From assembly GCF_011305995.1 (NCBI RefSeq), contig NZ_CP049910.1, positions 2,852,001 through 2,916,000 on the forward strand: DNA of 64,000 nt, in the 5' to 3' direction. This DNA comes from Diaphorobacter sp. HDW4A (GTDB lineage: Bacteria; Pseudomonadota; Gammaproteobacteria; Burkholderiales; Burkholderiaceae_C). Made by a program: the position numbers and the translations under genes. This document shows positions 32,026 through 36,647 of the stretch, in pieces. The notes below the pieces were generated by a model. That model worked only from the letters and a program-made list of their open reading frames with translations, was not told the origin of the DNA and searched no databases. Positions within the stretch are counted from its first letter, which is position 1. Every line of letters begins with the position of its first letter.

Positions 32026-34359
32026 ATGCCTAAACGCGCCATTGAATTTCAGGAACAAGCTGGCATGGTCGCATCGCCCGGCTTGCAGGCTGCGCCTGTG
32101 CTGGATTTGATGTGTTCCCATTTCGTGTTGGCCTTGGCCACGAAGCAGGGTTCCAGGTTCAACGTGCGTCGCGACATCAACGGGTTGATGGCCCTTGTCG
32201 CTCGGCACCTGATGTGGCCCGATCCCGTGTTGACCCGCGTTCGATTGTTCCTGGCGCGCCGCTGTAAGGACAACGAAGTCTGGCGTGGGCATGAGCAGCT
32301 CACCAACACAGAATTTCTGGAGCGACATGGCGTCTGGCGTGGCCCCTATGAAGAGGGCTCGCTCTTCTACCATCTGGACGAATACGCCAAAGACGCGCCC
32401 AAAGACCTGTTGACACTGCTCACCAGCACGGGCCAGTGGTTGAACCGCGCCCTCAAGAAGCAGTCGACCCTGATCGAGAAAAACATTGACTCGCTCGCCA
32501 ACCTGCTGCAACTGAACAAAGCCGAGCGTGCTCTGCTGCTCTACGGCACGCTGGCGCGTCATCAGCGTGACCTGCGCAGCCTGCTGGTGGAGTTCAAAGT
32601 CAACAACGCTCCCGAGGCCTACGCGGCTATCGCCGAACTCGCGGGCGTGCCAGCCACAGAGGTAGCCGAAGCCCTGCGCGCTGGAGGGCGTCTGGAGCGC
32701 ATTGGTCTGGTCGAAAACCTGATCTCCGAACAAAGCATCACCGACCTGGCCGACCTCATGAAGGTCAGCGAAAAGCTGCCCCCCGTGCTCATGCGCGAGT
32801 ACCGTGACCGCGCCGAACTGATGGCCGTGTTCACCCGGCCCGCTGTGCCCAGCGCACTCAACGCCGACGACTTCGATTTTGTGGGCGACGACGTGCAAGT
32901 TCTGGTCAACCTGCTGCGCAAGGCCATGCAAACCAAGGCCATGGGCGTGAACGTGCTGCTGTATGGCCCTCCCGGCACCGGCAAGACCGAGCTGGCCAAA
33001 GTGGTCGCACGCGTGGCAGGTCTGGACTTGTTTGAAGTCGAATACGCCGACCGCGATGGCAACAGCCTCTCGGGCCGCGACCGCTATCGCTCGCTGCAGA
33101 TCGCGCAAGTGTTCCTGAAAGGCGCAGAAGCCGCAGCACTGCTCTTTGACGAAGTGGAGGACGTGTTTCCACCCATCAGCGTCGATGCTGCAGGTCTGTT
33201 GGCGCGTGCTGAACACCAGGCCGTGAGTCCGGCCGGCAGCTCGGTCAACGGCAAGGCATGGGTCAACCAGATTCTGGAATCCAACCCGGTGCCAACCCTC
33301 TGGGTGACCAACAGCATCGGGCAAATCGACCCGGCCTTCCGCCGCCGTTTTGCCTACCACCTTGAACTGAAGTCACCGCCCCCCGGTGCCCGTGAACAGC
33401 TCATCCGCAAATCGCTGGACGGTGTGGCCGTGAGCGATGCCTTCATCGCCAACCTCACAGAACGCAAGGGCCTCACCCCCGCACAAATCCGCACCGCAGT
33501 GCGCTTTGCAGACCTGGCGCACGCCGGACCTGAAGTCGGCGGCGAAGCGTTTGAAGCCCTGATCGAGCGGCAACTGAAAAACTCCGACGCAGCGCTCGGC
33601 CGCAAACCCGACGCCACCGGTAAAAAAGGCCGTCGCCAGGTCACCACCTACGATCTCGACATGCTGAACGTAGAAACCCGCTTTGAGATTCCACGCATCG
33701 TGGACGCCCTCAAGGCTCGTGGTCACGGAGCCCTGTGTTTCTACGGTGCCCCCGGCACCGGCAAGACCGCACTGGGCGAATACATTGCCGAGCATCTGGG
33801 CAAGCCCCTCATCGTCAGGCAAGCCAGCGATCTGGTGAGCAAGTACGTGGGCGAAACCGAGCAAAACATGGCCACCATGTTCGCTGAAGCCACCCAGGAA
33901 AAAGCCGTGCTCCTGCTCGACGAGGCAGACAGCTTTCTGATGGACCGCCGCGGTGCGCAGCGCAGCTATGAAGTCACGGAAGTCAACGAGATGCTCCAAC
34001 AAATGGAGCGCCACGATGGTGTGTTCATCTGCACCACCAACCTGCTCGACCGCATCGATCAGGCTGCACTGCGCCGCTTCACCTTCAAGATCAAGTTCAT
34101 GCCGCTGACGGCAGCGCAACGCGAGAAGATGTTCATCACCGAAGCTCTGGCTGGTGATGCACGACAACTCCCCCCCGAAATCAGCCGCCGTCTGGCCCAA
34201 CTGGAGCAGCTCGCGCCCGGGGATTTTGCGGCGGTGAAGCGGCAATGCGACATCCTGGCAACAGAGTTCTCGGTAGAAGAATTCATCGAGCAGTTGGAGG
34301 CCGAGCATCGCATCAAGCCGGAAGTGCGGGAGCAGCGGTCGATAGGGTTTATGCGCTGA
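32026..34359 (+). CDS. Tandem AAA+ ATPase
   Basis: A 777-residue protein with a helical N-terminal region (1-280) and two AAA modules. Module 1 has Walker A GPPGTGKT (about residue 313) and Walker B ALLFDEVEDVF; module 2 has GAPGTGKT (about 573), VLLLDEADSFL, sensor FICTTN and the arginine pair ALRRFTF. No protease, HEXXH or nuclease domain is fused, so it is probably a remodelling ATPase with an unidentified partner. GAGGAG lies ten bases before the ATG. It stands alone between metabolic operons, 393 bases before a DUF2971 gene on the same strand; its codon use looks like the host. Confidence 0.85.
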   Translation: MPKRAIEFQEQAGMVASPGLQAAPVLDLMCSHFVLALATKQGSRFNVRRDINGLMALVARHLMWPDPVLTRVRLFLARRCKDNEVWRGHEQLTNTEFLERHGVWRGPYEEGSLFYHLDEYAKDAPKDLLTLLTSTGQWLNRALKKQSTLIEKNIDSLANLLQLNKAERALLLYGTLARHQRDLRSLLVEFKVNNAPEAYAAIAELAGVPATEVAEALRAGGRLERIGLVENLISEQSITDLADLMKVSEKLPPVLMREYRDRAELMAVFTRPAVPSALNADDFDFVGDDVQVLVNLLRKAMQTKAMGVNVLLYGPPGTGKTELAKVVARVAGLDLFEVEYADRDGNSLSGRDRYRSLQIAQVFLKGAEAAALLFDEVEDVFPPISVDAAGLLARAEHQAVSPAGSSVNGKAWVNQILESNPVPTLWVTNSIGQIDPAFRRRFAYHLELKSPPPGAREQLIRKSLDGVAVSDAFIANLTERKGLTPAQIRTAVRFADLAHAGPEVGGEAFEALIERQLKNSDAALGRKPDATGKKGRRQVTTYDLDMLNVETRFEIPRIVDALKARGHGALCFYGAPGTGKTALGEYIAEHLGKPLIVRQASDLVSKYVGETEQNMATMFAEATQEKAVLLLDEADSFLMDRRGAQRSYEVTEVNEMLQQMERHDGVFICTTNLLDRIDQAALRRFTFKIKFMPLTAAQREKMFITEALAGDARQLPPEISRRLAQLEQLAPGDFAAVKRQCDILATEFSVEEFIEQLEAEHRIKPEVREQRSIGFMR

Positions 34360-34752
34360 TGGGCTGGGGCAGAGAACGCAGCCCCTCTGCCCTCCCTTTT
34401 CACATCGCTTGTCTCGCCATACTGGCGTTTCGGCGACTGCCCGGTCTTGGCTGTGACTTGACTGTCATGACCGGCAGAAGGCGACCCTGAGCCGCCGTGA
34501 GAAGCGCCACCCGCAAGCTGACATTGGCTCGCTGCCCGCTGCTGTTGAAATTCCTCGCCCTGCCTACTAGCAAGCTATAGTTAGCGCGTTGAGGCGTGCC
34601 GGGTTTCGCGAAATTTTTATACTTGGGCGTTTAAACAAGCTGTCCTTGGCATGCGCTTCCTAAAAGCCATGTCTAAGAGAAATCGGCGCCCAGAATATCC
34701 CGCACGGTCCAGCTTATCCCCCAGGTTTTTCTGATTCATCACGCTAGGTTTC
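34360..34752 (+). other. 393-base gap without a gene: repeats and possible degenerate cassette boundary
   Basis: No ORF with coding character was found. A long imperfect stem (CTGCCCGGTC at 34438-34447 with GACCGGCAG at 34469-34477) is visible. CAAGCTGAC at 34514-34522 recurs exactly inside the attC-like site after the next gene (35594-35602), and GTTGAGG at 34588-34594 resembles that site's GTTGAGC end. The stretch from about 34580 to 34750 is AT-richer than the flanks. It may hold the promoter of the DUF2971 gene, but no clear -35/-10 pair stands out. Confidence 0.4.
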
Positions 34753-35577
34753 ATGTACTACACTGATGACTTTATGGCCGACGTTATGGGAATCGAGCGT
34801 CTGCCCGACGTTCTGTTTCACTATACCTCGATCGAGACACTCGCACTCATTCTGGAGACCAAGTCTCTGAGGCTTGGCAGGCTTGATAGCGTGAACGACC
34901 CTGAAGAGGCGTCAGCATGCGATCTGCCCAATGCCGCGACTTTAGTGTTTGCCTCATGTTGGACATCACAGGAGCGCGAATCCTTGGCAATGTGGCGTAT
35001 GTACACACCTAATATGCAAGGACTGCGCATAGCTCTGCCAAACAACCCCTTCGCAGGACGGCACGAGCCGACAATCTTCGAAAAGGGCGGAGCAATGCAA
35101 CGCTTTGACGGGCGGATCACGATCCATCGCGAAAAGGGTGACCACGGGATCACCTCGTGCTGCGTCACCGGACCAAACAAGATTTACTACACCGACGAGC
35201 TGAAGTATCGCAACGGCCGATGTCTTGACAATGATGGTAGTCAGTGGACGGTCCAACTTCACGACCTAGGCATGTTCAAGAGTACCTACTGGTCGTTTGA
35301 GGAAGAGTGGCGTTTCAAACTGCTTGCAACCTTCTCAGAAGGCATCCTCAACAGTCCCAATCCGGCTTCCCATCCGGCGTTCGATTTAGAGAGCTACCCG
35401 GTTGTTGAAACAGCCGTGTTTGTCCCGCTCGATGTGGAGTGTTTGCAGAACATGGAGGTACTACTCGGACCGTGCGTCAACACAGGACAAGAGTTGTTAG
35501 TTAAAGCGCTCTTGCAAAAATTCGCCCCGAACGCGAAGTTGAGGAGTAGCGAAATTCGCGTACGGCCGCCGCGATGA
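34753..35577 (+). CDS. DUF2971 domain-containing protein, probable integron-type cassette gene
   Basis: A 274-residue cytoplasmic-looking protein. It opens with the DUF2971 hallmark VLFHYTSIETLALILETKS (His23-Tyr24-Thr25), then LRLGRLDSVNDPEEAS (N48-D49-P50), FASCWTSQERESLAMWRMY and SFEEEWRF. The family function is not established; the H-Y-T start resembles the H-[YF]-T strand of DarT-like ADP-ribosyltransferases, which is only a similarity of pattern. Base composition is visibly lower in GC, with more A/T-ending codons than all neighbours, a sign of transfer. An attC-like site begins one base after its stop codon. It lies between the AAA+ ATPase and the aromatic cluster. Confidence 0.8.
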   Translation: MYYTDDFMADVMGIERLPDVLFHYTSIETLALILETKSLRLGRLDSVNDPEEASACDLPNAATLVFASCWTSQERESLAMWRMYTPNMQGLRIALPNNPFAGRHEPTIFEKGGAMQRFDGRITIHREKGDHGITSCCVTGPNKIYYTDELKYRNGRCLDNDGSQWTVQLHDLGMFKSTYWSFEEEWRFKLLATFSEGILNSPNPASHPAFDLESYPVVETAVFVPLDVECLQNMEVLLGPCVNTGQELLVKALLQKFAPNAKLRSSEIRVRPPR

Positions 35578-35578
35578 C

Positions 35579-35638
35579 GTCTAACCCCGCAGTCAAGCTG
35601 ACCCGCCAACGGCGGACAGCAAACTTTGTCCGTTGAGC
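35579..35638 (+). other. attC-like recombination site (integron gene-cassette 3' end)
   Basis: A 60-base element begins one base after the DUF2971 stop. The left end GTCTAAC (35579-35585) fits the R'' consensus RYYYAAC, and the right end GTTGAGC (35632-35638) fits R' GTTRRRY. Between them CAAGCTGAC then CCGCC-AAC-GGCGG forms a central hairpin, and CAGCAAACTTTG on the right is an imperfect complement of CAAGCTG with a bulge, as attC arms have. Size, order and position at a gene 3' end match attC sites. The 35639-35783 remainder holds a small CGGCC/GGCCG stem and no gene. No integrase is visible in the window. Confidence 0.62.
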
Positions 35639-35783
35639 GTCCGCTTTCATCTGCCGCCATCGGCCGCTTCTGGCCGTGAGATGCAGTAGACCGCACACAA
35701 CCGGAGTCATCAAAGTCCCATGTTACCGGAATGCCCATCGTGCCCAAACACGAGAGCGGCGTGCAGCACCAAGGGCCACCCAT

Positions 35784-36647
35784 TCAAGTCGCGTCGGTGA
35801 GCCGGAACTGCACATCGAGCGTATGAAACGCCCGCGTTGAAGCCTCACCGAGCGGCGTCAGCGCGCCCGCCTCGCGCCTTGGCATCTGCGCCACCAGCGA
35901 GGAGCGCACGCCGAACACGACATCGCTTTCAAGATACTGGTCGCCTTCTCGAAAGATGTGGGTCACCAGTGTCCGGTAACCCGGGGCCTCGATCATGAAG
36001 TGGACATGCGCGGGGCGCCACGGGTGACGACCGGAGGCGCGCAGGATGTCGCCGACCGGGCCGTCGGTGGGCACGGGGTAGGCGACGGGCAGGATGGAGC
36101 GGAAATGGATGCGCCCTTCCCCATCGGTGCGGAAGTTGCCGCGCGCCTGCATGTCCTGATCTGGGCGCTGCACGTCGTAGAAACCGTCGCTGTCCGCCTG
36201 CCAGGTGTGGACCAAGGCGTTGACGATGGGCTTGCCGTGCAGGTCGCTCACCGTGGCGGTGACGTAGAGCGGCTCGCCCTGCGCGCCATTGGCGATGTCG
36301 TCGCCGTGAGCGTAGCTTGGCGCGCCGTCCACGTAGAACGGGCCGAACACCGTGGCCTCAGTGGCTTCGGGCGGGAACTTGTTGTTCTGCGCGACGGCGA
36401 GCATCGAGAGGCCGAGCACGTCGCTCAGCAGGATGAACTCCTGGCGCTTGTCGTCGCACTTCTGGCCGGTGGCGGTGAGAAAGCCGATGGCGGCCATCAG
36501 CTCTAGTTCGGTCAACTCGACCTTGCGGGCGTAGTCGTGCAGGCTCTGCACCAGCTCGGTCAACAGGAATTTGAGGCGCGGCTCGCTGCAGTCGGCAAAG
36601 CGCGCGATGACCTCAGGGGTGATGCTCAGGTGGTCGATGTTTTTCAT
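35784..36647 (-). CDS. Intradiol dioxygenase, hydroxyquinol 1,2-dioxygenase type
   Basis: A 287-residue non-haem Fe(III) ring-cleavage enzyme. The N-terminal dimerisation helices (1-100) precede the beta-sandwich. The four iron ligands are Tyr157 (GFYDVQ), Tyr190 (VAYPVP), His214 and His216 (RPAHVHF), with the same spacing as in known hydroxyquinol 1,2-dioxygenases. GDILRASGRHPWRPAHVHF is typical of that subgroup, which turns benzene-1,2,4-triol into maleylacetate. It is the last gene of the long minus-strand run, 4 bases after livM, and maleylacetate reductase upstream would use its product. Confidence 0.88.
   Translation of the reverse strand: MKNIDHLSITPEVIARFADCSEPRLKFLLTELVQSLHDYARKVELTELELMAAIGFLTATGQKCDDKRQEFILLSDVLGLSMLAVAQNNKFPPEATEATVFGPFYVDGAPSYAHGDDIANGAQGEPLYVTATVSDLHGKPIVNALVHTWQADSDGFYDVQRPDQDMQARGNFRTDGEGRIHFRSILPVAYPVPTDGPVGDILRASGRHPWRPAHVHFMIEAPGYRTLVTHIFREGDQYLESDVVFGVRSSLVAQMPRREAGALTPLGEASTRAFHTLDVQFRLTDAT

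Follow-up and report, generated by a model that had tools for sequence, protein, structure and literature searches.

Integron integrases (IntI) capture gene cassettes at an attI site. In the chromosome of Diaphorobacter sp. HDW4A there is a single cassette, complete with an attC site, that has no integrase gene near it. The question is how such a cassette came to be there. The window, meaning the whole stretch of 64,000 nucleotides that was analysed, has this cassette between an AAA ATPase gene and an intradiol dioxygenase gene. The first-pass annotation had left two origins for it: capture at a secondary site, or a remnant of a chromosomal array. The available passages of PMC8618304 list three proposed origins of attC sites that lack an integrase, namely off-target insertion, loss of intI and rearrangement. 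Single cassettes are by default omitted by standard software, according to the passages available from PMC9024848.

Before asking where the attC site came from, it has to be established that it is one. Direct reading of the 60-nt element at 35579..35638 (forward strand) gives the ends GTCTAAC, from 35579, and GTTGAGC, up to 35638, with CCGCC-AAC-GGCGG in the centre, just as the annotation had described. Such end motifs alone are not rare, since there are four RYYYAAC...GTTRRRY pairs 50-139 nt apart on the two strands of the window. A structured model is more telling. The covariance model R2 was built from 15 other attC sites, leaving out the window site and its 86% identical relative on contig C2. 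One training site (from genome G615) is of a type similar to the window attC, and 12 of the 15 were found via the conserved right end described below, which means that R2 is not independent of what surrounds that right end. Run over the window with filters off, R2 finds exactly 35579-35638, with 29.1 bits and an E-value of 8.7e-6. This is the sole significant match; the runner-up has 9.4 bits and E 3.7. The R''/L''...L'/R' order of the element agrees with this score and with the exact coordinates. The annotation, which had placed an attC-like site right after a DUF2971 gene and proposed to score it with a covariance model, was right about the site. A simple motif-plus-arm scan of the window returned nothing, its arm threshold being too strict, and the window has no Rfam match at gathering scores.

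Folding of the bottom strand, the other check that had been proposed, does not help. Folded alone, this strand reaches -9.5 kcal/mol and 46 of 200 shuffles do as well, so there is no stable-hairpin signal; for the top strand 21 of 200 do as well, which is no clear excess. Folding energy was therefore dropped as proof of an attC, because shuffles fold equally well. The attC on C2 does fold well, with -18.7 kcal/mol for its bottom strand and 2 of 200 shuffles as good. It is identical to the window site in 53 of 60 positions, and two of the seven differences (TT to AA) sit in the inner right arm, where they disrupt the pairing of the window copy. With this arm pairing broken, and with folding no better than that of shuffles, unlike the C2 copy, the window attC is best read as worn. 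The arm CAGC(AAA)CTTTG, given earlier as a normal attC feature, is rather a damaged one. The element is a real attC site, for which the structured model score is decisive and not the end motifs or the folding. That it is a chance resemblance and no attC at all would fit the unremarkable folding and the commonness of the motifs, but is practically out of the question given the R2 score, the 86% identity to an attC that stands beside an intI, and the comparison with the related genome G004 below.

The gene in the cassette (34753..35577, forward strand) encodes a DUF2971 protein of 274 amino acids (Pfam PF11185, 28 bits against a cut-off of 22) in an intact reading frame. Its stop codon TGA, at 35575-35577, is followed by one base and then the attC. 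The cassette itself runs from 34744 to 35632 on the same strand. Its start, TAGGTTTCATG, is inferred from a Pseudomonas relative (L014), where it is also found; its end, set by the attC model, is the G of the attC crossover. The gene is present once in its own genome. Its GC content of 53.1% ranks 11th from the bottom among 2527 windows of the same size, and its GC3 is 62% against 74-89% in four neighbouring genes, which bears out the remark that its base composition differs from the surroundings.

Relatives of the protein are scarce. Among 84,980 species genomes there is only one, 73% identical and on a Pseudomonas chromosome. There the gene has GTTAGGT before it and ACCTAAC after it, which are paired cassette ends; in the window, the cassette start CTAGGT is not complementary to the left end of the attC, GTCTAAC. 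A putative attI-like stretch lies directly left of the Pseudomonas cassette, and R2 has no attC match at that locus. Among 399 genomes of the order, the protein is found at E 1e-20 in one, its own. The best plasmid relative is 44% identical, and a search of plasmids with the window attC gave one record only (75%, E 0.5). The protein also weakly matches the PADLOC PDC-S31 candidate defence models (best E 1.5e-7 over some 35 residues), which hints at a possible role in phage defence.

What lies to the right of the crossover is more informative. The sequence shared with the C2 integron does not end with the attC but extends 38 bp beyond it, and comparison with other genomes gives a conserved right end of 44 bp, at 35633..35676 (forward strand), directly after the crossover. 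In the window it is recognised by an exact 16-mer, by a sharp end and by a match to R1, a sequence-only model of the right flank that had the window in its training. The exact 16-mer after the crossover is found at 12 places in 6 of 299 genomes of the family, with 0 for a reversed control, and 11 of the 12 places also align over the further half. The twelfth (L059) shares nothing further and was dropped before alignment. In an ungapped comparison of 13 flanks, identity is 76, 50 and 68% in the first three blocks of 15 nt and then 26-36%. Homology thus breaks off sharply, which sets the length at about 44 bp. Judged by these comparisons, the right flank is a conserved integron-associated sequence and not arbitrary chromosomal DNA.

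This matters for the first of the two annotated origins. An integrase could have inserted a free cassette at some arbitrary, attG-like GTT of the chromosome, with no former integron at this place. Cassette insertions at attG sites are reportedly known from Loot et al. 2024, and the site has neither an intI nor a clear attI, as this explanation would have it. Like the window, attG insertions are lone chromosomal cassettes. In the window, unlike there, the right flank is conserved, integron-associated and common to unrelated integrons; since the 44 bp past the crossover belong to such a sequence, insertion at a random secondary site is improbable. As G004 moreover carries another array at the same place, we give this origin very little credence.

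G004 belongs to the same genus. Between the end of a LysR gene (placed by eye) and the dioxygenase gene it has two attC sites, both of them in the R2 training, around another cassette ORF. Past the last of these attC sites comes a right end of the same kind, and beyond it the DNA can be aligned with the window (81% over 63 bp, including 35677..35720 on the forward strand, the chromosomal DNA just past the right end). The intradiol dioxygenase gene, at 35784..36647 on the reverse strand (TIGR02465, 165.9 bits and so below the cut-off of 359), is the neighbour in both genomes, and from 35800 on this side is 91% identical in DNA. The two species therefore have different cassettes at one site. Because place, right end and flanking DNA are shared, the insertion appears to be older than the split between them. 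It had been expected that relatives would show a clean gap at this locus. They do not: of the five other genomes of the genus only G004 closely matches the dioxygenase side, it has another array there, and no relative with an uninterrupted locus was found. These five genomes have no intI above cut-off, which leaves the own genome as one of six.

That genome is 6.76 Mb in 3 contigs. Contig C2, of 242 kb, is taken as a plasmid from its size alone. It holds both full-length integron integrases that exceed the NCBIfam cut-off (C2:145930-146874 and C2:237146-238090), and an integrase fragment at C2:132511. The second of these, integrase B (C2:237146-238090), is adjoined by attI, two cassettes and two attC sites. 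The last of these attC sites with its flank is 86% identical to 35581-35676 of the window over 96 bp. Two further places on C2 match the right end from the first base past the crossover; to the left of one there is a full attC of different sequence, which is an R2 training site, and to the left of the other an attC-like left half (both by eye). The first integrase (L001) reads like what we take to be IntI1, with attI1-like and sul1-like sequence beside it. This would make it part of a second, class 1-like integron in this genome. The last attC of the integrase B integron (L012:13614-13673) resembles the attC regions of plasmid DUF1010 cassettes, at 81-91% in the 20 listed of 31 records; one such record that was examined carries intI1.

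A scan of the whole genome with R2 gives 10 attC sites with E-values of at most 1. C2 has three of them, and the other seven occupy four chromosomal places, of which the window is one; three of the ten trained R2. The suggested search for intI and further attC sites thus found both, with the intI on C2 and not near the window. A clearer decayed integron lies on the same chromosome at C1:2379000-2384000 (L116, L159). Two short arrays follow each other there, and together they comprise the first 40 aa of an intI, two attI-like sequences, three attC sites and two right ends. The remaining chromosomal places are C1:1198500-1203000 (L117), which carries partial right-end matches, and C1:3008355-3008411 (L169).

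The right end is not confined to this genus. R1 matches, many of them partial, occur in at least 149 of the 299 family genomes at E 0.01. For inspection, 42 full-length right ends were chosen among the matches listed, from 39 stretches (L098-L136) in 23 genomes; 7 of the 42 trained R1, and as the choice was mostly of full-length matches with low E-values, partial ones are under-represented. An R2 attC ends at the crossover in 22 of the 42, or in 11 of 31 if the 11 attC sites that trained R2 are excluded. The 31 left sides outside the R2 training share the right half of attC position by position, and in 29 of them a C precedes the last base. In the remaining 20 of the 42, R2 finds no attC at the crossover; in some of these (L120, L125) none is seen by eye either. 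There are another 20 R2 matches in the inspected stretches; placed by eye, 2 overlap the crossover with an offset, 17 lie upstream of the right end on the same strand and 1 (L127:1842) lies beyond it, near the end of its stretch. With R2 matches next to the crossover or upstream of it, the right end marks the end of a short array, with this one exception.

The second half of the right end is also found alone, away from attC. Hairpin-like short repeats of the GACCGCTTCTGGCCG type were seen away from attC in L158 (G632:C21), L014 and L038. In L158, all repeat matches left of the attC have one orientation and all those right of it the opposite one.

Such repeats suggest another way to explain the locus. 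The 44-bp element could be a dispersed repeat favoured by integrases as a landing site, and a plasmid-coded integrase acting in trans could have put this cassette there. The element's second half does belong to the hairpin-like repeats that also occur without attC, two integrase genes are at hand on C2, and there are several copies per genome: counting partial matches, at least 9 in the own genome, at least 15 in G579 and at least 14 in G632. The last two are genomes rich in right-end relics. But full-length copies mostly adjoin attC sites or attC right halves, several genomes have remnants of attI and intI within those short stretches, and class 3 integrons have this element at the end of their core in each of two distinct surroundings. 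We regard the landing site as an unlikely explanation.

If the window instead holds the remains of an integron, something of intI or attI might be sought left of the cassette, and little is there. The locus lacks a complete integron, that is, an intI next to attI and an array. A tblastn search near the window for intI remnants, for which integrase B was the sole query, gives no match better than E 0.41. Local alignment found no significant attI left of the window cassette (495 of 1000 shuffles) or left of the G004 array (510 of 1000 shuffles). A possible last trace of the attI core, ATTCATCACG, lies at 34734..34743 (forward strand), where 7 of 10 letters equal the C2 attI core CTACATTACG. This is weak: the 15-mer compared there was picked post hoc and included five letters of the cassette start, so that only the 7 of 10 attI letters count. 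The left intergenic regions of the window and G004 share one 16/19 match (E 0.13), which was not used. The AAA ATPase gene that adjoins the cassette on the left, at 32026..34359 (forward strand), is elsewhere on the same contig in G004. Its match there is C31:214521-215560, the dioxygenase side is C31:167385-168485, and the two are about 46 kb apart. The left side has therefore been rearranged in one of the two, window or G004.

Complete and half-decayed relatives occur elsewhere, and the attI of the C2 integron recurs in other genomes together with intI, attC and parts of the right end. G015 has an attI, four attC sites and an intI that is intact and 95% identical in protein, with no right end within the stretch examined. 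G423 has a broken intI, attI, attC and a partial right-end match, and G678 has two tandem copies with intI remnants. Taken in the order G015, G423, G678 and C1:2379000-2384000, these form a decay series. G003, of the same genus, has a 40-aa intI remnant and attI on a contig of 5 kb that holds neither an attC nor a right end. An empty junction of attI and right end, searched as one pattern with up to 1 mismatch, was found in 0 of 399 genomes.

The locus is probably what remains of a chromosomal integron after heavy decay, with just the last cassette and the right end left. This is the second of the two annotated origins, and it gains support from the G004 array and from a right flank that recurs with attI and intI remnants. 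The site has an attC without an intI, and a right end with a G004 array at the orthologous place; the same attC and right end stand next to an intI on C2. Against this count the lack of an intI trace (with integrase B as query) or significant attI at the window, the 20 of 42 right ends without an R2 attC, the second half that occurs alone, the missing empty junction and the lack of an intI above cut-off in the rest of the genus.

As we reconstruct it, an integron of a type native to the family, with intI, attI, cassettes and the 44-bp right end, would have come to adjoin the dioxygenase gene before the lineages of G004 and the window species parted. The integrase of that integron would have taken up cassettes at attI via folded attC sites; capture at attI is described in the passages available from PMC8618304. 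The two species would then have ended with different cassettes. In the window species intI and attI would subsequently have been lost, a likely cause being the rearrangement that brought the AAA ATPase gene to the left side, while the DUF2971 cassette was presumably retained and its attC lost part of the arm pairing. With that pairing partly gone, the attC is probably hardly recombined today, though in principle it may still be within reach of the two C2 integrases, acting in trans. The order of these events, the former intI at this spot and the present inactivity we infer; the attC, the conserved right end, the different cassettes at one site and the complete and half-decayed relatives were observed.

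The integrase B integron also leads beyond the family chromosomes. Among the plasmid matches listed, the best ones to integrase B are class 3 integrases, with 67.7-68.9% identical protein. The integrons of C2, G015 and G678, whose intI ends are complete, have a stretch of 40-46 bp past the intI stop in common before the sequences diverge, and the DNA homology of the C2 copy with two class 3 plasmids likewise breaks off 40 bp beyond this stop codon. From longer lists, nine class 3 records were selected; they were compared through exact anchor motifs, by which divergent copies would be missed. The nine records hold ten copies, bounded by CTGGATGGCGGCTCAGGGTCGA on the left and by TTGAGCGACTGC...CTCCTGGCCGG on the right. 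The copies lie in two different surroundings (six and four) and are identical up to these ends and different beyond them, so the class 3 integron core, too, has two fixed ends. R1 recognises the right end in both class 3 records that were scanned. The right-end sequence therefore recurs beside other integrons, drug-resistance ones included.

Of 21 pairs of left and right ends, read outward, 6 are alike at a level reached by no more than 10 of 1000 mononucleotide shuffles. The window right end has no such likeness (364-387 of 1000), and neither has the C2 integron's own right end (593-653 of 1000). Inverted repeats at the integron ends are possible on this evidence. By eye, no target duplication is seen at the ends of the class 3 copies. 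IncQ class 3 integrons, according to the passages available from PMC7557826, are part of a putative element that has inverted repeats of the Tn3 type and direct repeats of 5 bp. Tentatively, the integron core (some 40 bp past intI, intI, attI, cassettes and the 44-bp right end) may itself be mobile, as a discrete unit whose ends are fixed and in part inverted repeats and which an enzyme supplied in trans would move. It would have seeded the chromosomes of the family with several copies that later decayed to lone cassettes, and class 3 would be a branch picked up by two carriers. This proposal is doubtful enough that it may well be wrong.

Several known systems are similar to what is found here. 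CALIN and single-attC elements, as IntegronFinder and the available passages of PMC9024848 and PMC8618304 have them, also consist of attC and cassette without a nearby integrase. Unlike these, the window has just one attC, and a worn one, where the default threshold is two, and its origin can be read from the conserved right end. Pseudo-integrons with a broken intI (Nemergut et al. 2008, passages of PMC2426708) share the decay of chromosomal integrons; C1:2379000-2384000, G423 and G678 are of this kind, whereas in the window intI is wholly gone. Class 3 integrons (IntI3, on plasmids) have the same left-end sequence past intI as the integrase B integron and a right end of the same kind behind the last attC, but are mobile and carry resistance cassettes, where the window is a chromosomal relic. 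Integron mobilization units and the class 3 elements bounded by inverted repeats (passages of PMC7557826) likewise have an integron within fixed ends and no transposase of their own. They differ in having Tn3-type repeats and 5-bp direct repeats, whereas no target repeat is seen at the ends here.

A right end of this kind is not reported in the titles, abstract openings and passages available from the open-licence literature, PMC12444791, PMC11023631, PMC2426708 and PMC8618304 among them, nor in those of PMC9024848, PMC5020092, PMC11616780 and PMC7557826. It may already be known, as some work on chromosomal class 1 integrons lies outside the open-licence literature.

The conserved right end is a means to separate the three proposed origins of attC sites without an integrase, even for single cassettes. 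Because it marks a limit of the integron core, it offers a handle on how the chromosomal integrons of this family spread, and also on how class 3 resistance integrons reached their carriers.
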